From: Pseudomonadota bacterium
GTDB taxonomy: Bacteria; Myxococcota_A; UBA796; GCA-2862545
DNA: 64,000 nucleotides
Assembly: GCA_023954855.1 (NCBI GenBank)
Contig: JAGSGY010000003.1
Span: 62,001 to 126,000, forward strand
Direction of reading: 5' to 3'
Made by a program: the position numbers and the translations under genes. Positions 6,600 through 53,645 of the stretch are shown piece by piece; positions within the stretch are counted from its first letter, which is position 1; each line of letters starts with the position of its first letter. A model generated the notes under the pieces. The model was not told the origin of the DNA. It made no database searches and was given only the letters and a program-made list of their open reading frames with translations.

Positions 6600-9500
6600 A
6601 TGGCGGGGATGGTCCGCATCCGAATCACAGAAGAGCATGAGGGCATCGAAGGGGTGACCCTCTACGAGGCCCTCGCACCCTCAGGGCGCACTGTAGCGGG
6701 GCCCCGTGTGGCCATCGTCGGGGGCATCCATGGTGATGAGCCCGTCGGCCTTCGGGCACTTGACCGGCTGCGCGATGAGAGTGGCAAGCTCGTCGCGGGA
6801 AGCCTCCTCGCTGTGGTTGGGAACCCCGTGGCCTCGGGCATGGGCCTGCGGCACACGCCGGATGGCCAGGACCTGAACCGGCTCTTCGATGCCAAGACAC
6901 TGGACCGGCTCGCGCACGCACCCGTCCAGTCCCTGAATGCGGAGGAGCGGCGCGCACGGGCGATCGGCCCGCTCCTGGCGGGAGTCGACGCCATCCTCGA
7001 TCTCCACTCCACGTCGCGGCCAGCGCCCCCGTTCTTGCTGTTTCGCGATGATCAGCGGCACCAGCGCCTAGGCCTCCGGCTTGGCGTCGAACACCTCGTC
7101 ACCGGCATGCATGAGAGCAGCGTTGTGGCCGGCGGTCTGGCCTGCAATGCGGGCCTGAACTCCGGTGAGCGCACAGCTCGCCTCGGCTTCACCTTCGAGG
7201 CGGGCGAGCACACGGCGCCCGGAAACGCCTCCCGAGCCTGGGATGTGGTCACGCGGCTTCTGCACGCACTGGGCATCTGGGCCGACGTGCCGGAGCCCGC
7301 CGATATCGAGCCTCGAGTCTACGAGGTCATGGAGCGCTTCGCCCAATCCCCCGAGGGAATGGAGCCGTGGCGCTTCGTTGGATACTCCGGAGCGGAACGG
7401 GGGAGCGAGAGATCAGGCCCCCCTCGACAGCTTCAGAGCTTCGAGCACATCGAGGCGGGTGAGGTCGTGCTCAAGCGGGGAGGGCACCACGTCGTTCGCG
7501 CTGCAGCGCCGTTCACGATGCTCATGCCGGCCCCCACCGCAGGACCTGGCGCAGACCTTTACTTCATGCTCCAGCCACGGCACGGCGGCCTGATGCGCGC
7601 GGAGGGTCCCCGAACGGATCTCGAGGCGCGTCGCGAGGCCGAGGCCATCGAGCGCATGCTCGACCTCCTCGATGCCGATGGCTTCGACCAGGGTGCCACA
7701 CAGCTCAGTTTCGACCCGAGGGTGGTACTCGGTCTCTGCGCCTCAGAAATCGAGCGCATCGCGACGCTGCCGGAAGGAAGCCCGCACCGCCGCCTGTCCG
7801 TAGTGGGCCGGGGAGACTGGGGGAGCGGCGAGAGCGACCGCCGGGCTGGGCAGCGCTACCGTCGCGCGATGCGTCGAGCCATCCGTACGGGCGTCAGCAT
7901 TGATCGGTTCCAGTTGCTGCGAGGGGCCTCCCTCGGCTGGCTTGACGCGCTGACCGGTGAGGGAATGGGGCAATTGCTCCGCGAGCGAGCGCTGCGGCCC
8001 GACGTCTCCGACATTCGAATGTACGTGTCCGACCGCCAACCTCATACGGTGAGCCTGCTCGTCCTCGGGGATGTGGATCTCGCCCTGCGGACCGGCGACT
8101 ACCGGGCGGCGCGGGTGGCCGTGGTCGTCGAGGCGGCCACCGTCGAGCCCGACGAGGGTGAAGTGCGCGTGCACGTCGTGCGATCTGGGCTCCTCTCTGC
8201 TCGTCGCGAGGTCCTCGTCGCAACCCACCGCTTCCTGTCGGTCTTGCGTCGGCAGCATCGGGCGCTGCTTCAGAGTCCGGCCCTGCGCGTGGTTCACGAG
8301 AAGCTCCCCAACGGAACGGGTCCAGATGGCGCGCTGATTCCACGGCCCGGCCAGCTCGAGCCCATGCGCGTCGCACTTCGCTCTCTTCAGGTGCAGCGTT
8401 GGTGTGAGCAGCTCGACCCGGCTCTAGTACCCGGCGAGGTTCTCTCGACGCCCGCCGAGCGTGGTCAGTGGCTCGCAAGGACGGTGGTGGCCTCCGGGGT
8501 GCACGACCTCGAAGCACTAAAGACGATCCTTCGGCAAGAGGAGCAGGGCTGGACGGTCGACGGCGCGGCGCTGTCTCGCTGGACGGCGGACCCGATGAGC
8601 GTCGCTCCATCCCCGCCGCAACCGGCTCATGGGCCAAGGCAGCCGCTGTCTGCGGCCGAGGTCGACGGGGACTCCCTCGAGCGCTGGATTGGCTGGAAGC
8701 GCTACCTGCGCACTGGGCAGCTGATTCCGGGCACGCAGGGCCGTGATGTGGGCCTTGCACTCACGACCCACGAGATTCACCGCCGCATCGCGCAGATCTA
8801 TGCCCGAGCTCGGGCCCTCGGGGCTGACCGGCCCGGTGACGTACGCGTCATCGTCTGTGGTGACGGCGCCATGCCACGGCGGGAGCGCCTCGACACCGGC
8901 AGCGAGGTTCTTGCAGCACATCGAGGTGTGCTCCGCGACCCGAATGTGTCCTATCTTCGCATTCAGCACGCCTCTGGCACACACGCTGCTTGGCTGAAGG
9001 ACTTCTTGCAGCACCTTGCTGCACGTCCGAACGGAGCAGCCTCTGCGGCAGTTCAGTGGGAGCCAGACCACGGCGCAAGTATCAACGCCATTATGTTGGC
9101 GACCCGCGAGCGGGGCGCACCGACGAGGCCCTTCTCGTTGGACGGGTGGCGGATTCGAGCGTGTGGCGTCGCCCTGCAGGCCTTTGCAGAACAAGAGCGT
9201 GAGTACGAGCTGGCGCTGTTCACGGGTCAGCGTGGTCTCGAGAACACCGAGCTCCTCGCCTTTGCACGGGCGCACGCGGAAGGGCTGCTGATCCAGGGTG
9301 GTGGGCGACTGCTTGCGGACGGCGGACCCGTCGACCCCGCACAAGCCTCGGCCTTTGGCGAAGAGCAACTGGGGCGCTGGATTCGGCGTCTACGCCGTGC
9401 CTCGAAGGAGCCGGGTTGGCCGACGACCGACGACCCTGCCGCAGTGCGAAGGGCGGTGGCACATCTCGGACTAGAAGACGCGGTACTCGGACTTGCGCTA

Positions 9501-9662
9501 GTCTCCGCCGCAGCATCCGAGGATACTGTGGTGCAAGCCGCTCACTCTACGTGGGAGGCGATTGTTCCTTGGCCGGGTTCGCGATGGGCGGAGCTGCTCG
9601 GAAGCGATTACACGGCAGCATCTTCCAGTACAATCGACCGCGCTGAGCGGAGGACCCTGTGA
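6600..9662 (+). CDS. Aspartoacylase/succinylglutamate desuccinylase-like protein fused to a large unknown region
   Basis: A 1020-residue protein. Residues about 30-230 form an AstE/AspA-type zinc carboxypeptidase-like domain: GGIHGDEPVGLRAL supplies the His and Glu zinc ligands, ILDLHST the third ligand, DGQDLNRLFD the substrate-arginine segment, and TFEAGEH the likely catalytic Glu. Such domains deacylate N-acyl amino acids or similar amides. The family is usually 300-350 residues; here some 650 further residues, Arg-rich and apparently globular, match nothing I know. No signal peptide is evident. ATG 6609 (MVRIRITEE) is an alternative start. The stop overlaps the GTG of the GAF gene (GTGA), so translational coupling is likely. 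Confidence 0.8.
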   Translation: MAGMVRIRITEEHEGIEGVTLYEALAPSGRTVAGPRVAIVGGIHGDEPVGLRALDRLRDESGKLVAGSLLAVVGNPVASGMGLRHTPDGQDLNRLFDAKTLDRLAHAPVQSLNAEERRARAIGPLLAGVDAILDLHSTSRPAPPFLLFRDDQRHQRLGLRLGVEHLVTGMHESSVVAGGLACNAGLNSGERTARLGFTFEAGEHTAPGNASRAWDVVTRLLHALGIWADVPEPADIEPRVYEVMERFAQSPEGMEPWRFVGYSGAERGSERSGPPRQLQSFEHIEAGEVVLKRGGHHVVRAAAPFTMLMPAPTAGPGADLYFMLQPRHGGLMRAEGPRTDLEARREAEAIERMLDLLDADGFDQGATQLSFDPRVVLGLCASEIERIATLPEGSPHRRLSVVGRGDWGSGESDRRAGQRYRRAMRRAIRTGVSIDRFQLLRGASLGWLDALTGEGMGQLLRERALRPDVSDIRMYVSDRQPHTVSLLVLGDVDLALRTGDYRAARVAVVVEAATVEPDEGEVRVHVVRSGLLSARREVLVATHRFLSVLRRQHRALLQSPALRVVHEKLPNGTGPDGALIPRPGQLEPMRVALRSLQVQRWCEQLDPALVPGEVLSTPAERGQWLARTVVASGVHDLEALKTILRQEEQGWTVDGAALSRWTADPMSVAPSPPQPAHGPRQPLSAAEVDGDSLERWIGWKRYLRTGQLIPGTQGRDVGLALTTHEIHRRIAQIYARARALGADRPGDVRVIVCGDGAMPRRERLDTGSEVLAAHRGVLRDPNVSYLRIQHASGTHAAWLKDFLQHLAARPNGAASAAVQWEPDHGASINAIMLATRERGAPTRPFSLDGWRIRACGVALQAFAEQEREYELALFTGQRGLENTELLAFARAHAEGLLIQGGGRLLADGGPVDPAQASAFGEEQLGRWIRRLRRASKEPGWPTTDDPAAVRRAVAHLGLEDAVLGLALVSAAASEDTVVQAAHSTWEAIVPWPGSRWAELLGSDYTAASSSTIDRAERRTL

Positions 9663-23701: not shown

Positions 23702-24163
23702 TCAGCGTGTCTCGTCGACGATGTCGTAGGCGATGATCGCCTCCCAGGCGGCGAACTCTGCGCCACCACCCACCGGGCTGTCATAGTCCGAGTGGTTGTT
23801 CTGCTGCAGGCTCACGCGCAAGTGGACCTCGTTCGCGCTGTCGAGGTTCGGGCTGTCACCCGGGGCATGCGTGACCTGGTGGGAGAGAGCCTCGGGTGAG
23901 CCGATGTGTTCGTTCTCGAGCGAGATGTGGTAGTGGCCGACGCCGTCGATGGGCTCTGTACCGGCCAGATCGTGGTCAAAGTCCATCCCGTCAATGTCGA
24001 CCACCACGAGGAAGTCGATCGTTCCGTCCGCTTGCCGGATCAGCGGCTCATCTGCAGGGGGGTAGAGCAGTTCGATCGACGGCTCGATCGCTGAGCCAAG
24101 GTCCACTGCATCCGGGGCAGGGCACGCCGCGAGCAGCGGCAGGGCTACGAAAAGGCTTCGCAT
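23702..24163 (-). CDS. Lipoprotein of unknown function, kinase operon
   Basis: Start chosen at ATG 24163, giving a 153-residue lipoprotein with MRSLFVALPLLAACPAPDAV (lipobox LAAC). The open frame extends much further 5' but that part reads as non-coding and is antisense to the Rieske gene. The mature part is acidic and His-containing, including VGHYHISLEN, EALSHQVTHAPG and LRVSLQQNNHSDY, and resembles a beta-sandwich ligand or metal-binding domain; I cannot name the family. It directly precedes the Ser/Thr kinase gene, so it may be an outer-membrane or periplasmic sensor component for it (inference). Confidence 0.78.
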   Translation of the reverse strand: MRSLFVALPLLAACPAPDAVDLGSAIEPSIELLYPPADEPLIRQADGTIDFLVVVDIDGMDFDHDLAGTEPIDGVGHYHISLENEHIGSPEALSHQVTHAPGDSPNLDSANEVHLRVSLQQNNHSDYDSPVGGGAEFAAWEAIIAYDIVDETR

Positions 24164-24257
24164 GTTTGGGCACTCCAAGACGCACATTCTCACACACGCT
24201 CTAGGCCGTCGCTGGCTTCGGATCGAGGGGAAGGGTAGAAACTTGGCCGGAGACGCA

Positions 24258-24707
24258 ATGACCACGCTTCGAGACCTGCTTCGACTTCTTGTGAAAGGAC
24301 GTCCCGACGGACTCCGACACCGGTGGGTCTGGCGATGGCTCAGGACCGCCGAACCCACAAACGAGGTCGACAGAGCGCCGGTCACGGCCACGTCGGAGGC
24401 AGGGCTCGGCGAGCTACTCTGTCGGCTCGACGATCTCGCGGACGGTGAGGTCATCGAGGTCATGGTGGACGGTCGGCCTCTCGCGGTGTGCCGCGTTGGC
24501 GATGACGTATTCGCGGTGGATGGCACCTGCCCGCATGCGGGGGGCGCTCTCGCGGACGGCCAACTGGAGGGAAGCGTTCTCACTTGCCAGAGCCATGGCT
24601 GGTCCTTCGACGTGGTGACCGGCGATTGCGAGATGGACGACGAAATGTGCGTAGAGCGCATCCCCACCGTCCTCTCGAATGGCGAAGTGCGCTTGATGGA
24701 GCAGTAG
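24258..24707 (+). CDS. Rieske-type [2Fe-2S] protein
   Basis: Start chosen at ATG 24258 (MTTLRDLLRLLVKGRP), after a GGAGA; the frame is open further 5' but antisense to the lipoprotein start. The 149-residue product has the Rieske cluster-binding boxes CPHAGG and CQSHGW (CxH...CxxH) at about residues 90-115. The spacing and short length fit soluble Rieske ferredoxins such as dioxygenase ferredoxin components or NirD. No oxygenase or nitrite reductase gene is nearby, so the partner is unknown. The N-terminal ~40 residues are basic and Trp-containing (RHRWVWRWL) and could be membrane-associated. Confidence 0.9.
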   Translation: MTTLRDLLRLLVKGRPDGLRHRWVWRWLRTAEPTNEVDRAPVTATSEAGLGELLCRLDDLADGEVIEVMVDGRPLAVCRVGDDVFAVDGTCPHAGGALADGQLEGSVLTCQSHGWSFDVVTGDCEMDDEMCVERIPTVLSNGEVRLMEQ

Positions 24708-24816
24708 CCGCGCATTGGTCGTGCGAATCTGGACGCCGTCTGGCGGCGGGTTGGGCCAAAAAGTGTTGGCTGCTCCTGGCTAATTGAGTACCGTCTGAGG
24801 AGCTTGGAGGGAAGTG

Positions 24817-26160
24817 ATGGGCTCTGACCCGTCTTCCGTTTCGCCATCGCGCGAAGGGGCCGACCCAGGCCATGCCCGGTTGGCTTTGGAGTGTGTTGGC
24901 CCCGTCGATTCTGTGGTGCACCTTAGGGATGGCATCGTCGCCGACGTGCGTGGTCAGCTCGTACACACCCAAGCCGGTGCGACACTTGAGTCTCTGTTCG
25001 ACCCATCCGAGTCTGCTGCCGTAGCCGTTGCCCTTGGTCGAGGGTTTGTGGGGGCGAACGATCGCGTCTGGCGCCTGGCGGATGGATGCCGCGCGCTGCT
25101 GACGGCCGAGAGGCTGCACGATCGTTGGTGCATTGGCTTCCGCGACGTCACGGCGCTCGAGGCGGTCCGTGGCGAGGAGCGAAGGAACGCTCAGTCTGCA
25201 GCGTTGGCGGCACTGGCTGCCTCTGTCGCCGCGGAGCTCGCCACGTCAGTGAACGTGGTCGAAGGGCGACTTGAGCTCGCGCTTGAGATGTACCCCGACC
25301 TTCCCCCCGGGCTGGTCACGCAGCTCAAGATCGCCCTCGCGCATACACGTGAGATTAGCGGCAATACGCGTGCGCTCCGATTGGTAGGGCATCAATCCCT
25401 GGCTACGACAGCGTCCACAGCTCTTCACACCCTTATGGAGGGGGCGTGGACGGCAGCGGCGCCCCGCATGAAGGGAGCAGAGCGTACGGGCAGCATCCTC
25501 AGCACCCTCCTTGTAGGTGCCGAGCAACAGCCACTCACCCGTGCGCTCATCCACCTGCTGGTCGTTCTCGCCGATGAACCGAAGCGTGTCATTCACGTGG
25601 ACGCGAAATCCGACGGCGACGGCGTGATGATGCGTCTGAAGAGGCCGGGAGCCACCCGGGGAGGCAACCCTTTTGGCGAGTCCAGGGGCTTCGCGTTTTC
25701 GGTCGCACGGGGCCTGATCGAAGGCCTCGGTGGCGGCGTTCAGGGCTCGATCGCCTCCGACTCGGTGACTCTGACCCTTCGGCTTCCGCTCCCATCGAGA
25801 ACTCGCGCTCGCGCGAGGCGAGGGGAGGAAAGGGTGCTCATTGTGGGGGCCCCAGAGCTGCCAGACGTGCTCGCGCCAGTCCTTGAGCCAGAGGGCTTCC
25901 ATCTCGAGTGGGTCGCATCCGGGGACGAGGCGCTCGACCGTCTCGCCGGTGGTGGGCTAGCGGGCGTGGTCACCCAGTTGGTGCTTCCGGGCTGCTCCGG
26001 TGCCGCACTGGCGCGCCAGGTCGTGCGAGAAGGCGGCCCACCCGCGGTGATCCTCTGTCACGAGACCATGGCCTGTCTGCCGTCAAGGATCACGGTCCTC
26101 GCCCCGCCGGTGGCCCGTGGTCCGCTGCTTCGTGCGCTTGGGCGCCGGGTTCGTCCCTAG
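24817..26160 (+). CDS. Hybrid histidine-kinase homologue lacking catalytic residues
   Basis: ATG 24817 lies 6 bp after GGAGG. The 447-residue protein follows a PAS-DHp-HATPase-receiver plan but has lost the chemistry. A PAS-like region (~20-115) ends in GFRDVTALEAVRG. The DHp helix reads AALAASVAAELA (131-142), with Ala139 where the phospho-acceptor His of VAHE belongs. The N-box region LTRALIHLLVVLAD (240-253) lacks the ATP/Mg-binding Asn. The G2-like segment is GFAFSVARGLIEGLGG. The C-terminal receiver-like domain (~338-447) has LIVGAPE instead of the acidic pair and VVTQLVLPGCSG with Gln387 at the phospho-Asp position. A regulatory or scaffold pseudokinase is inferred. No transmembrane segment was seen. 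Confidence 0.8.
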   Translation: MGSDPSSVSPSREGADPGHARLALECVGPVDSVVHLRDGIVADVRGQLVHTQAGATLESLFDPSESAAVAVALGRGFVGANDRVWRLADGCRALLTAERLHDRWCIGFRDVTALEAVRGEERRNAQSAALAALAASVAAELATSVNVVEGRLELALEMYPDLPPGLVTQLKIALAHTREISGNTRALRLVGHQSLATTASTALHTLMEGAWTAAAPRMKGAERTGSILSTLLVGAEQQPLTRALIHLLVVLADEPKRVIHVDAKSDGDGVMMRLKRPGATRGGNPFGESRGFAFSVARGLIEGLGGGVQGSIASDSVTLTLRLPLPSRTRARARRGEERVLIVGAPELPDVLAPVLEPEGFHLEWVASGDEALDRLAGGGLAGVVTQLVLPGCSGAALARQVVREGGPPAVILCHETMACLPSRITVLAPPVARGPLLRALGRRVRP

Positions 26161-26821: not shown

Positions 26822-27583
26822 TCACTTACCTGGACTCTTGTTCGACCCTAGGGTTTCACCGACTGGCTCTTTTGCACGGATCAACGCCTCGGCGCGGCGG
26901 GTGAGCGCTTCGTAGATCCCCAGCTGGTCGAGAAGGCCAAATTCTGCGAGGGCCTGTCGGTGCGCGGCGATGACCGCGTGATCACCGCGGGCAACAGGTC
27001 CGGTGAGGCTTGCCATCGGATCGTCGCCAGCGTTGGCGAGCGAACGAAGTGCAAGCGGCGCGAGGATGCCGGGTGCGTCGTCTGCTGGAACCCCCGCCGC
27101 CGTGAGGATCGCACTCGCCTCTGCGAGCAGCACGGTCGCAAAGTTCCCCGCCATGACCGCGGCGGCATGGTAGAGGCGCCGATCTCCGGGAACGACGATG
27201 GGGCGCATGCCTAGGCGCTTTGCAATGTCGTCGCCCAGTGAGACTGCCTTGGGATCGCCCGCAAGCGCTGCAGGCACGCCCGCGAGATCAGGCAACGCGT
27301 GAGGTCCAGGGAAGGTCATGAGTGGGTGGAAGCTTCCCGCAGGCCGATGCGGCCGGAGCACCTCGAATGCGGTGGCTCCAGAGGTGTGCAGTGCGATCAG
27401 CCCGGGAGGCAGGCCGCGAGACGCCTCTGCGATGGCATCGTCGGGAACAGTGAGAAGCACTCCGTCCGCAGCTGGTGGGATTGGAGTGTCGCGACCGAGC
27501 AAAGAGACGCCCACTCCAGCTTGTTCGAGGAGAATGGCGAGTGAACGGCCTAGGCGGCCGGGTCCGAGAATGGCGACATGCAT
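26822..27583 (-). CDS. Rossmann-like and DUF2520 domain protein
   Basis: Start chosen at ATG 27583 (MHVAILGPGRLGRSLAILLE); the longer open frame 5' of it is not coding-like. The 253-residue protein has a Gly-rich dinucleotide-binding loop GPGRLG at its N-terminus and motifs HTSGATAFEVL and SFHPLMTFPG, typical of the DUF2520 family related to pyrroline-carboxylate and ketopantoate reductases. The C-terminal half is helical (DUF2520). An NAD(P)-dependent dehydrogenase of unknown substrate is expected. It diverges from the enoyl-CoA hydratase gene across ~100 bp holding a 12-bp palindrome. Confidence 0.87.
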   Translation of the reverse strand: MHVAILGPGRLGRSLAILLEQAGVGVSLLGRDTPIPPAADGVLLTVPDDAIAEASRGLPPGLIALHTSGATAFEVLRPHRPAGSFHPLMTFPGPHALPDLAGVPAALAGDPKAVSLGDDIAKRLGMRPIVVPGDRRLYHAAAVMAGNFATVLLAEASAILTAAGVPADDAPGILAPLALRSLANAGDDPMASLTGPVARGDHAVIAAHRQALAEFGLLDQLGIYEALTRRAEALIRAKEPVGETLGSNKSPGK

Positions 27584-27631
27584 GGGTGAGGCTCTAGCAC
27601 GTGCGGTGGAGGCGTCTTTGAGACCATTCCA

Positions 27632-27643: not shown

Positions 27644-27686
27644 GGGTTCGCTGTCGATCGTGCTAGCGTTTACCTGTGGAGGCACC

Positions 27687-28460
27687 TTGGCCCTTGTACT
27701 GACGCAGACGGAAGATGGCGTATGCACACTCACCCTCAACCGCCCCGAGCGACGCAACGCACTGTCCTCTGGCCTTATCGACGCCATTCACGCCGGCCTT
27801 GACGATGCGGAGGCCGACACCGAGGTGCGCGCGATCGTGCTCACCGGCGCTGGAAAGGGGTTCTGCGCTGGCGGCGACCTCGCGGGAGGCATGGCTGGCA
27901 AAGCCTTTCTAGAAGGGCACCGCTCACGAGGTCGGTACGCGGAGTTGCTTGGACGCATTCCACGCTGCGAGAAGCCGGTTGTGGCCGCCGTCAACGGCGA
28001 CGCGCTCGGCGGTGGCCTCGGGCTGGTCGCGGCCTGTGACCTCGCGATCGCGGATCCGCGTGCGCGGTTGGGCACACCCGAGATCAAGGTCGGTCTGTTT
28101 CCGTGGATCATTCTCGCGCCGCTGCAGCGCCACGTCGGTCGCAAGGCTCTGATGGAGCTCGTCCTTACCGGCGAGCGCGTCTCTGCCGACCGGGCGCTCG
28201 AGCTTGGACTGCTCAATCGCTTGAGTGAGGAGGGCCAAGCACTTGCGGACGCTCAGGCACTGGCCCGGGTCGTAGCCAGTCGCTCGCCCGCGATTGTCGC
28301 CCTCGGAAAGAACGCGTTCGCTCGGGTGGCGGACATGGCCTACGATGATGCTCTTGCGTACCTGCACACGCAGCTGACCGTGAACCTCCTCACCGAGGAC
28401 GCCGCCGAGGGTATCGGGGCGTTCTTACAGAAGCGGGAGCCCAATTGGAAAGGCCGGTGA
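27687..28460 (+). CDS. Enoyl-CoA hydratase/isomerase family protein
   Basis: TTG start at 27687 is chosen because GGAGG (27678-27682) sits 4 bp upstream and it gives the usual crotonase N-terminus (ALVLTQTEDGVCTLTLNRPE); a GTG at 27660 is possible. The 257-residue protein has the CoA-binding/oxyanion segments GFCAGGDL and NGDALGGGLGLVAACD and the conserved GTPEIKVGLFP. One of the two catalytic Glu positions of hydratases (in the NG.a.GGG..l block) is not obvious, so isomerase or another crotonase activity cannot be excluded. Overlaps by 4 bp (GTGA) with the biotin-carboxylase homologue, implying a shared pathway such as acyl-CoA catabolism. Confidence 0.9.
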   Translation: MALVLTQTEDGVCTLTLNRPERRNALSSGLIDAIHAGLDDAEADTEVRAIVLTGAGKGFCAGGDLAGGMAGKAFLEGHRSRGRYAELLGRIPRCEKPVVAAVNGDALGGGLGLVAACDLAIADPRARLGTPEIKVGLFPWIILAPLQRHVGRKALMELVLTGERVSADRALELGLLNRLSEEGQALADAQALARVVASRSPAIVALGKNAFARVADMAYDDALAYLHTQLTVNLLTEDAAEGIGAFLQKREPNWKGR

Positions 28461-29794
28461 TCAAGCGCGTTCTCATCGCAAACCGCGGCGAGATCGCACG
28501 GCGCCTCATTCAGTTCTTCAAGGATCGCGACATCGAGACGGTCGCGGTGTTCTCCGAGCCCGACGTTGACCAACCCTGGGTTGAGGAGGCCGACTACGCG
28601 GTCTACTTGAACGGGCGCACGGTGGCCGAGACCTACCTAAATGCGGATCGAGTTGTCGCGGCGGCAATGGATTCGGCCGTAGATGCCATCCATCCCGGGT
28701 ATTGCTTTCTTGCCGATCGGCCCGAGTTCTACGCCCTGACGGACGCCGCGAATCTGTTCGTGTACGGCGCAGGAAGCTCGTTGCTGTCGGTTGCCGGGGA
28801 CCGCTTGGCCGTTCGAGAGGCGGGCCGTGAGCTCGGGCTCGACGTGGTTCCTGGTTCGGATGTGCTCACCAACGAGAGCGACCTGGTTGCCGAGGCCGTC
28901 GCGGTGGGCTTTCCGCTCTACGTTAAGGCCCAGCACTCCAGTCGGGCTCGGCGTGTTGAGGCCCTCCAAGACCTCCCGGCCGCCCTCACGAGCATGCAGG
29001 AAGAGAAGCTCGATGGGCTATTTCTCGAGCGCGCCATCGATCGACTTCGCTACGTAAGCGTCGTGGTCGTGGGCGATGACGAGATCGGCTCCATGCCCCT
29101 CGGCGCCGTAGAGTCTTCGGTTCGGGTGCGGCAGCAAACCTGGGTCGAAGAGCTGGGTCCAGAGGTTGTCGAAGGGGACCTAGGCTTGGGCCTACAGGGA
29201 GCCTCGGTAGCGCTCGCAGACCAGCTCGAGTGGCGCGGCGTGGGTCGCGTTCGTTGGGCCCTTTCAGGGGGGACAGCCTTTCTTATTGGCTTCACCCCGC
29301 GTCTTCCTACTGGCTACTCGCTCACCGAGGCCGTTCATGGACTTGACCTACTCGAGGTCCAGCTGAACACGATCAACGGCCAGCACCTTGGGTGGGGGCA
29401 CCTCGACACGCAGCCCACCCGACAGGGACTGCAGCTTCGCCTCATCCATGGCGATGCCGACGGTGTGCGGACCGAGGGCACCCTCTCGAACTTCACGCTT
29501 CCCCAGTCCGAGGGGGGACTGCTGGTCGAGACGGGACTTGAGGCCGGCCTGCTCTTGGGGCCGGACACCGAGCCCTTGCTCGCCAAGATCACGGTCCTCG
29601 CCCCGACGCGTCAAGCGGCCATCGTCAAGGCACGCTCTGCGCTCGCCAAGGTCGAAGTCGAAGGGGTGGCGAGCAACCTCGAAGCGCTGCACGCGCTGCT
29701 CGAGGACATGGCGTACTGGGAGGGCGAGGTGGATCTCGACACGCTCCCTCGCATTCTCCGCGGCCTTTCAGAGGGATCTGCCGCCGCGACCTGA
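28457..29794 (+). CDS. Biotin-carboxylase homologue with lost catalytic motifs
   Basis: GTG 28457 overlaps the hydratase stop (GTGA); an in-frame TTG at 28445 is an alternative. The ~445-residue protein starts like a true biotin carboxylase (KRVLIANRGEIARRLIQFF) and keeps DAIHPGYCFLADRPEF. However, the ATP-grasp glycine loop GGGGRGM of AccC reads HSSRARR, RRHQK reads VRQQT, and EMNTRLQVEH reads GFTPRLPTGY, followed by SLTEAVHGLDLLEVQL. ATP and bicarbonate chemistry is therefore probably absent. The canonical AccC in this same window (52296-53645) retains every motif. A regulatory or structural partner, or a repurposed ligand-binding protein, is inferred. Confidence 0.83.
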   Translation: MIKRVLIANRGEIARRLIQFFKDRDIETVAVFSEPDVDQPWVEEADYAVYLNGRTVAETYLNADRVVAAAMDSAVDAIHPGYCFLADRPEFYALTDAANLFVYGAGSSLLSVAGDRLAVREAGRELGLDVVPGSDVLTNESDLVAEAVAVGFPLYVKAQHSSRARRVEALQDLPAALTSMQEEKLDGLFLERAIDRLRYVSVVVVGDDEIGSMPLGAVESSVRVRQQTWVEELGPEVVEGDLGLGLQGASVALADQLEWRGVGRVRWALSGGTAFLIGFTPRLPTGYSLTEAVHGLDLLEVQLNTINGQHLGWGHLDTQPTRQGLQLRLIHGDADGVRTEGTLSNFTLPQSEGGLLVETGLEAGLLLGPDTEPLLAKITVLAPTRQAAIVKARSALAKVEVEGVASNLEALHALLEDMAYWEGEVDLDTLPRILRGLSEGSAAAT

Positions 29795-29883: not shown

Positions 29884-30267
29884 GTGGCCAGACTGGAGGC
29901 TTCGTTGCGAAGCTACCGTCCAAAGCGTGTCGGCGAGATGATCTTCCGCGAGCTGGCCATGCGCCTGCGAACCGAGGTCAAGGATGACCGGGTAGGAGAC
30001 ATCTCCATCACCCGCGTTGAAGTCAACCGCGACCTCTCGCGAGCGACCATCTTCTTCCTGCCGCTCGGAGGCGGCGCGGTCACCGACGACATCGAAGACG
30101 GTCTGGTCGAGGCTGCCAAGCAGCTCCGGGGCCCGATCGGTCGCGAGCTTCGCCTGCGCCACGCGCCCGAGCTCGTCTTCGTCGAAGATACCGAGCACGA
30201 CAAGGCCCTTCGGGTTGCGTCCCTGCTCGACCAGATCGCCAACGAGCGTGGCGAGGGCCGAGAGTGA
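29884..30267 (+). CDS. rbfA: Ribosome-binding factor A
   Basis: A 127-residue protein with GTG start. RbfA binds the 30S subunit during late assembly and cold adaptation. Typical features are RPKRVGEMIFRELAMRL, GDISITRVEVNRDLSRATIFF and GRELRLRHAPELVFVED, forming the KH-type fold of the family. It overlaps truB by 4 bp (GTGA). nusA and infB, often upstream in other genomes, are not present; the 89 bp before it show nothing recognisable. Confidence 0.93.
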   Translation: MARLEASLRSYRPKRVGEMIFRELAMRLRTEVKDDRVGDISITRVEVNRDLSRATIFFLPLGGGAVTDDIEDGLVEAAKQLRGPIGRELRLRHAPELVFVEDTEHDKALRVASLLDQIANERGEGRE

Positions 30268-31238
30268 AGCCCGGATTTCTGGTCATCGACAAGCCGGCTG
30301 GCATTACCTCCCACGACGTCGTGGCGGCGGTTCGCGCTGTGACCGGCATCAAGAAGGTGGGCCACACGGGGACCCTCGACCCGTTCGCAACCGGTGTGCT
30401 GCCCCTCGCGCTCGGTGCAGCCACTCGTCTCATCGAGTACCTCGACGAGAGTACGAAGATTTACGACGCGACGATCCGCTTCGGCTCGGCGACCGACACG
30501 GCCGACCTCACCGGCCAGGTCATCGCCGAGGCACCGCTGCCGACCGCAACGGATGCCGAACTCCAAGAAGTGCTCGCGGGTTTCATCGGCGAGCAAGGCC
30601 AGCGCCCACCGATGTACAGCGCCGTCAAGGTCAAGGGCAAGGCCCTCTACAAGTACGCGCGCAAGGGCGAGATCGTCGAAGTCGCTGAGCGTCGCATTAC
30701 CGTGCACGACCTTGAGGTCCTGGAGCGCTCCGACGAGCAACTTCGCCTGATGATCACCTGCAGCCGCGGCACCTATGCTCGTGTGCTTGCCGACGACATC
30801 GCCATCGCTCTCGGGTCGCGAGGACATCTCATCGCTCTTGAGCGGCCCCGTTCAGGACCGTTTCTCCTAGAGGATGCGCTGTCCATGCCGGCACTCGCGG
30901 AAATCGCCGCGCCTGACACCGGCCGTCCGTGGCCCGAGGTGCTGATGTCCCGCAGGGGTCAGAAGACCGAGCGCGTGCAGTGGCGAGCCCGCGATATCGT
31001 CCGCGAAGGCGTGCTTCCCTGGTTCAGGCGGCCGCTCGATGTGCTCACGCACTACCCCCTCGCTGACGTGTCCGAGTCCGTCGCCAAGCGCATCCGCTCT
31101 GGTGGTGCTCCGCCGCCACCACCCAAGGGAGTCGAGGTCGGCAGCCGGTTCCTCGCCGTATGCGCGGATGATCTGGTCGCGATGATGGAGGCAACGCCGC
31201 GCGGCGCACGGGTTCTCAAGGTCATTCCGCCGGCGTAG
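30264..31238 (+). CDS. truB: tRNA pseudouridine-55 synthase
   Basis: A 324-residue TruB. It converts uridine 55 in the T loop of tRNAs to pseudouridine. Catalytic Asp39 lies in GHTGTLDPFATGVL; GFLVIDKPAGITSHD starts the protein, and PPMYSAVKVKGKALYKYARKG and CSRGTYARVLADD are further motifs. A C-terminal PUA-like region (~250-324) is present with a proline run PPPPP. It is the second gene of rbfA-truB and is followed by rpsO after 144 bp. Confidence 0.96.
   Translation: MKPGFLVIDKPAGITSHDVVAAVRAVTGIKKVGHTGTLDPFATGVLPLALGAATRLIEYLDESTKIYDATIRFGSATDTADLTGQVIAEAPLPTATDAELQEVLAGFIGEQGQRPPMYSAVKVKGKALYKYARKGEIVEVAERRITVHDLEVLERSDEQLRLMITCSRGTYARVLADDIAIALGSRGHLIALERPRSGPFLLEDALSMPALAEIAAPDTGRPWPEVLMSRRGQKTERVQWRARDIVREGVLPWFRRPLDVLTHYPLADVSESVAKRIRSGGAPPPPPKGVEVGSRFLAVCADDLVAMMEATPRGARVLKVIPPA

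Positions 31239-52295: not shown

Positions 52296-53645
<1,350 letters not shown>

Follow-up and report, generated by a model that had tools for sequence, protein, structure and literature searches.

An apparently undescribed lineage of probable biotin carboxylase pseudoenzymes in an order of uncultivated bacteria

Biotin carboxylase (BC) is among the best-studied ATP-grasp enzymes. The BADC proteins of plants are unbiotinylated homologues of BCCP in the heteromeric acetyl-CoA carboxylase, for which an inhibitory role was reported first and a role in assembly later (PMC11926652). The liu genes encode carboxyltransferase, crotonase and BC activities (PMC9636800). In the literature searched, the ATP-grasp fold and the term pseudoenzyme were named together only for TTLL12, an ATP-grasp-related pseudoenzyme of an unrelated eukaryotic family (PMC3520985). 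No conserved inactive BC was found described in this literature, which lay mostly outside subscription journals.

Here we report on a BC-like gene in a window of 64,000 nucleotides, by which we mean the whole stretch of DNA that was analysed. Its product, termed pseudo-biotin carboxylase (pBC), appears to belong to a pseudoenzyme branch of the BC family that is apparently undescribed. It shares with BCs (AccC and the BC domains of PccA, MCC alpha and pyruvate carboxylase) the three-domain fold, the length, the RG and HPG elements and the residues E201, D306 and Q310, at about 25–33 % identity. Unlike these enzymes, the window pBC lacks Lys116, the glycine loop, H236/K238, E276, E288, N290, Q294 and E296. 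It also has neither an attached BCCP nor a linked carboxyltransferase; context queries, which included the carboxyltransferase encoded in the window, found no such gene beside pBC. By analogy with BADC (PMC11926652), pBC may be an inactive paralogue of one of the subunits of acetyl-CoA carboxylase, retained in a non-catalytic capacity, but BADC derives from BCCP rather than from BC, and the two do not share descent.

Since its BC-fold gene is immediately preceded by one for a crotonase, the pBC locus also resembles liuC–liuD type pairs, in which, however, the BC is intact and a carboxyltransferase is adjacent. The order carboxyltransferase, crotonase, intact BC was seen at L142:3193-5312 and L236:1806-3916, an ordinary carboxylase cousin of the crotonase/pBC arrangement. 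The crotonases of these two loci are 32–37 % identical to that of the window, compared with 48–75 % for its own orthologues.

Gene, fold and active site of pBC

The pBC gene (28457..29794, + strand) starts with GTG at 28457 and encodes a full-length protein of 445 aa, the stop codon ending at 29794. The crotonase-family gene directly upstream (27660..28460, + strand; probably starting further in, near 27696) ends in ...CGGTGA at 28460, and GTGA forms a 4-base overlap with the start of pBC. Both the open reading frame and the overlap had been proposed in a preceding sequence-only reading and were borne out. A candidate ribosome-binding site, GGAAAGG, is located at 28447–28453. With an alternative in-frame TTG start at 28445, the overlap would be 16 bases. 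Scans for promoters and terminators around the pBC cluster found none.

The sequence-only reading had stated that the start of the N-terminal BC domain is kept. This was correct, but the retention is wider: Pfam models of all three BC domains matched within residues 2–430 (Biotin_carb_N, 3e-28; CPSase_L_D2, 8e-14; Biotin_carb_C, 1e-13). The best NCBIfam matches were end-to-end, to accC-type and urea-carboxylase models, with 197–222 bits at cut-offs of at least 597. Against TIGR00514 (accC; cut-off 626.5 bits), pBC scored 196.8 bits. The canonical AccC encoded in the same window (52296..53645, + strand) also remained below this cut-off (572 bits), yet it passed the cut-off of the PRK08591 subfamily (597).

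An AlphaFold 2 model of pBC, computed from a 35-row alignment, had a mean pLDDT of 94.7 and a pTM of 0.93, and the model of a distant orthologue from host family f2 reached a pLDDT of 93.2. The best PDB match was a nucleotide-bound BC, that of E. coli (3rv3; Foldseek TM 0.90, VIA Z 47.9, 436 residues). According to the models, the whole three-domain BC fold (N, ATP-grasp and C) is predicted to be retained in pBC, and the open reading frame, Pfam, NCBIfam and alignment results likewise indicate a complete fold.

Alignment with the BCs of the same genome showed that the glycine loop GGGGRGM is shortened to QHSS-RARR in pBC, that RQQTW stands in place of RRHQK, and that FLEMNTRLQVEH reads LIGFTPRLPTGY, by which the EMNTRxQVEH motif is lost. 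All three motifs are intact in the AccC of the window, which served as an internal control, and likewise in L002, L004 and L005, the three other BCs that this genome encodes. The alignment thus confirmed the difference between pBC and the AccC of the window that had been noticed from the sequence.

For a wider comparison, 35 pBC orthologue sequences were aligned, and the aligned positions were read with the catalytic roles and the E. coli numbering that we take to apply to them. Lys116 is replaced by Arg in all 35 sequences, Lys238, Asn290 and Glu296 are absent from every one (35/35), and the glycine loop is shortened or scrambled throughout (35/35). His236 is lost in 34/35 and Glu276 in 32/35. 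At the metal-ligand positions E276/E288/N290, the window pBC has Arg, Gly and Thr; among its bicarbonate/biotin residues, R292 and R338 are kept and H236, K238, Q294 and E296 are lost. Because orthologues with 39–73 % identity show the same losses, chance is excluded as a cause of the motif loss.

The active-site residues that remain differ by subclade. Those of family f1 mostly retain Lys159, Arg292 and Arg338, whereas those of f2 retain His209 and Glu201, with Asp at position 288 and, in most sequences, an acidic residue (Asp or Glu) at 290. The active site was thus inactivated first, and its later drift took a separate course in each branch. The subclade-specific residues might still allow residual binding of a nucleotide or an anion. 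Structural elements are retained across pBC (RG, HPG, DL..Q and the C-terminal TR...VRA), a C-terminal helix (APTRxAALVRARAAL) is conserved, and Arg116, Trp313 and Trp421 are new, near-invariant residues. Of the residues at the dimer interface of canonical BC, Arg16 is kept in 32/35 sequences and Arg366 is not kept, so that the canonical dimer is not assured for pBC.

Judged by these alignments, most residues for the binding of Mg-ATP, bicarbonate and biotin are lost from pBC and the BC fold is kept. We infer that pBC is unable to carboxylate biotin and works without BC catalysis. Its role is probably a non-enzymatic one, other than BC chemistry.

Selection, distribution and origin

Pairwise dN/dS values of pBC ranged from 0.05 to 0.23 (ten pairs). 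Between the genome of the window and a congener, dN/dS was 0.21 for pBC, similar to the 0.23–0.25 of the nearby crotonase, truB and pnp genes. Purifying selection on pBC is thus strong; its absence, which the sequence-only reading had named as a refutation, was not observed. Over longer times pBC evolves faster than canonical BC, as indicated by a mean identity within f1 of 45 %, compared with 70 % for one canonical BC orthologue group. With catalytic residues lost across orthologues and fold and purifying selection retained, pBC has the marks of a pseudoenzyme. The proposal of a pseudo-biotin carboxylase is strongly supported: the catalytic sites are degenerate in all 35 orthologues aligned, the dN/dS values are low and the BC fold is confidently predicted.

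In f1, pBC was found in 13 of the 21 genomes, including that of the window; the other twelve copies are 39–73 % identical to the window pBC. Order-wide profile searches detected orthologues in five of the six families seen, with 36 genomes scoring at least 404 bits. Two further genomes were recognized by motifs and context, G042 (367 bits) and G012 (a fragment at a contig end). The gene is carried by at least 37 of the 63 genomes of the order (37–38 with the G012 fragment). Bit score alone is not a clean classifier, since the pBC of G042 lies inside the canonical range and was identified by motifs and synteny, and some genomes of the order that scored as lacking pBC may hold a diverged copy. 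Clean losses in several relatives (G002, G020 and G004/G016) show that pBC is dispensable. There was no obvious pattern, by eye, between the presence of pBC and the number of canonical BCs per genome.

Outside the order, profile searches recognized pBC neither in the eight genomes that represent the rest of the class nor in the remainder of the phylum sample, where the four best scores (L233–L236, from other classes) belong to canonical BCs with intact motifs. Orthologues with intact motifs, which would refute the sequence-only reading, were sought in the order, the class, the sampled phylum and contigs from 84,980 species; the matches listed included none. In the contig scan, the top matches outside the pBC group were, among the matches listed, only of canonical type, and the closely matching named records, again among the matches listed, were all metagenome-assembled genomes of Deltaproteobacteria or Proteobacteria. 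A Bacteroidetes match (L151) was considered as a candidate pBC and rejected as a canonical BC.

In a BC/pBC tree built by a quick method, all pBC rows grouped together, apart from all canonical BCs, and were sorted largely by host family. The sole canonical-labelled row inside the pBC clade, L120, is the pBC of G060 under a second name. The simplest reading is that pBC would have arisen once, before the families diverged, and descended vertically with losses. Its exact canonical parent is uncertain because of the long branches.

Crotonase, DUF2520 and other neighbours

Rat enoyl-CoA hydratase has two catalytic glutamates, E144 and E164. The crotonase of the window and all aligned orthologues (L019-L030, L057-L061, L091, L126, L138 and L140) have Gly at the Glu144 position and keep Glu164. 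The pBC-linked crotonase is probably not an ordinary two-glutamate hydratase.

The crotonase gene lies directly upstream of pBC in 11 of the 13 f1 genomes with pBC. From stop to start codon the two genes are about −16 to +19 bases apart, a spacing that makes co-translation in f1 likely. Two f1 genomes (G006 and G015) keep pBC alone, and the reverse holds for G004/G016 and G005/G017, which have the crotonase and lack pBC. Both genes are absent from G002 and G020, in which the DUF2520 gene directly adjoins rbfA; the joint loss could be one deletion in each. No crotonase adjoins pBC at the f2 loci. In part of f4 (L091, L126, L138 and L140), the crotonase is one gene away from pBC, between DUF2520 and pBC, and the gene in between encodes a beta-keto acid cleavage enzyme (BKACE; L091:6372-7334, − strand). 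The functional pair that had been suggested from the overlap therefore stands as a tight arrangement in 11 f1 genomes but is weak as a general claim, and the shared crotonase neighbour expected from it is missing in G006, G015 and f2.

Among the genes around pBC, the most constant is one that the sequence-only reading did not mention, a divergent DUF2520 gene (26822..27586, − strand; COG5495-type, Rossmann-like), the reading frame of which extends to 27787 with conservation beginning near 27586. Of the 35 loci with sufficient flank, 34 carry it (L133 does not), and it either adjoins pBC or is separated from it only by the crotonase or by the crotonase and one more gene. It also persists in genomes where pBC was lost. 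We take COG5495 to be the DUF2520 group. Its relative Rv3603c has been linked through its genomic neighbourhood with the synthesis of pantothenate and folate (PMC3317503) and was also given as coaX (PMC7770189). The link of DUF2520 to pantothenate and folate is to be read with care, since the two groups are equated by our assumption and Rv3603c carries the second designation.

Downstream of pBC follow rbfA (29884..30267, + strand; assigned by position and similarity) and truB (30264..31238, + strand), both conserved in f1, f4, f5 and f6. A Rieske [2Fe-2S] protein gene (24162..24707, + strand) is located a few kb beyond DUF2520 in f1, f2, f4 and f6, though not at every one of the loci with enough flank. 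Between the Rieske gene and DUF2520, the window encodes a protein of 448 aa (24814-26160) without a Pfam match at E 0.001; related proteins are encoded in the same region of L019 and L030, and loci from further families gave weaker matches. In f2, for example at L128:5506-7322, two AstE/AspA-family hydrolase genes lie directly 3' of pBC. Their catalytic domain is also present in a large protein that is encoded in the window at 6600-9662, 19 kb from pBC.

Possible roles of pBC

We consider it reasonably probable that pBC is an order-specific, vertically inherited, non-catalytic BC paralogue of single origin, most likely a regulatory or assembly subunit. As a mechanism in its own right, the non-catalytic regulatory or assembly subunit is the most likely one, although we put it forward tentatively; it is favoured because plant BADC shows that acetyl-CoA carboxylase can include an inactive homologue of one of its subunits. 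The partner, which could be a BC, a BCCP or an acyl-CoA enzyme, would be bound through the retained BC surface (Arg16, the N-terminal RG/HPG elements and the C-terminal helix). The presence of Arg16 is compatible with an interface of the BC type, whereas the loss of Arg366 is not. In f1, the co-translated crotonase would probably share the metabolic context of pBC rather than be its obligate partner.

Next best, and unlikely by comparison, is a ligand-binding sensor, in which the remodelled cleft would bind a nucleotide, an acyl-CoA or a metabolite of the pantothenate pathway and signal to a partner such as the DUF2520 protein. In place of the ATP-binding Lys116 of canonical BC, pBC has an invariant Arg116, Trp313 and Trp421 are new and near-invariant, and a nucleotide-bound BC is the best structural match; the near-constant DUF2520 neighbour and the gene context of Rv3603c (PMC3317503) point the same way. 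However, the pocket residues other than Arg116 vary by subclade, unlike a conserved ligand site, and DUF2520 persists without pBC. Comparably doubtful is a neofunctionalized BC fold in which, after one ancestral loss, the Arg116 cleft would have been rebuilt for another metabolite, together with the DUF2520 oxidoreductase-like protein and, in some families, CoA enzymes (crotonase, BKACE).

We regard as rather improbable a dedicated complex of two subunits, pBC and the crotonase, in which pBC would act as a scaffold or hand over the substrate. The close spacing in f1, the crotonase one gene away in part of f4 and the unusual Gly at the Glu144 position of the crotonase are in line with such a complex. 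Against this, pBC occurs alone in G006, G015, G037, G028, G048 and G032 and the crotonase occurs without pBC in other genomes; these separate losses and the lack of an adjoining crotonase in f2 make it unlikely that such a complex is obligate throughout the pBC family.

A new catalytic activity on the ATP-grasp fold (another ligase, transferase or hydrolase reaction) seems very unlikely. It would fit the strong selection on pBC and, in f2, the acidic residues at both metal-ligand positions (288 and mostly 290) together with His209 and Glu201, but none of the sequences has Lys116, an intact glycine loop, Lys238 or Glu296, nearly all lack Glu276, and apart from Arg116 the subclades have no substitute catalytic residue in common. 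A decaying pseudogene or an assembly artefact, to which the divergence of the protein and its loss in some relatives might point, was rejected as having a negligible chance in view of the open frames in 35 orthologues, the dN/dS values, the conserved synteny and the confident fold.

The pBCs raise the testable possibility that acyl-CoA carboxylases of bacteria are under non-catalytic control in the manner of BADC. In current annotation pipelines, pBC genes would probably be called active acetyl-CoA carboxylase subunits, which would mislead the metabolic reconstruction of these uncultivated bacteria. Vertically inherited across the order, the pBCs constitute natural variants with which the BC fold can be probed without ATP chemistry. 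They have been kept over long evolutionary time in an order of uncultivated, Deltaproteobacteria-like hosts.
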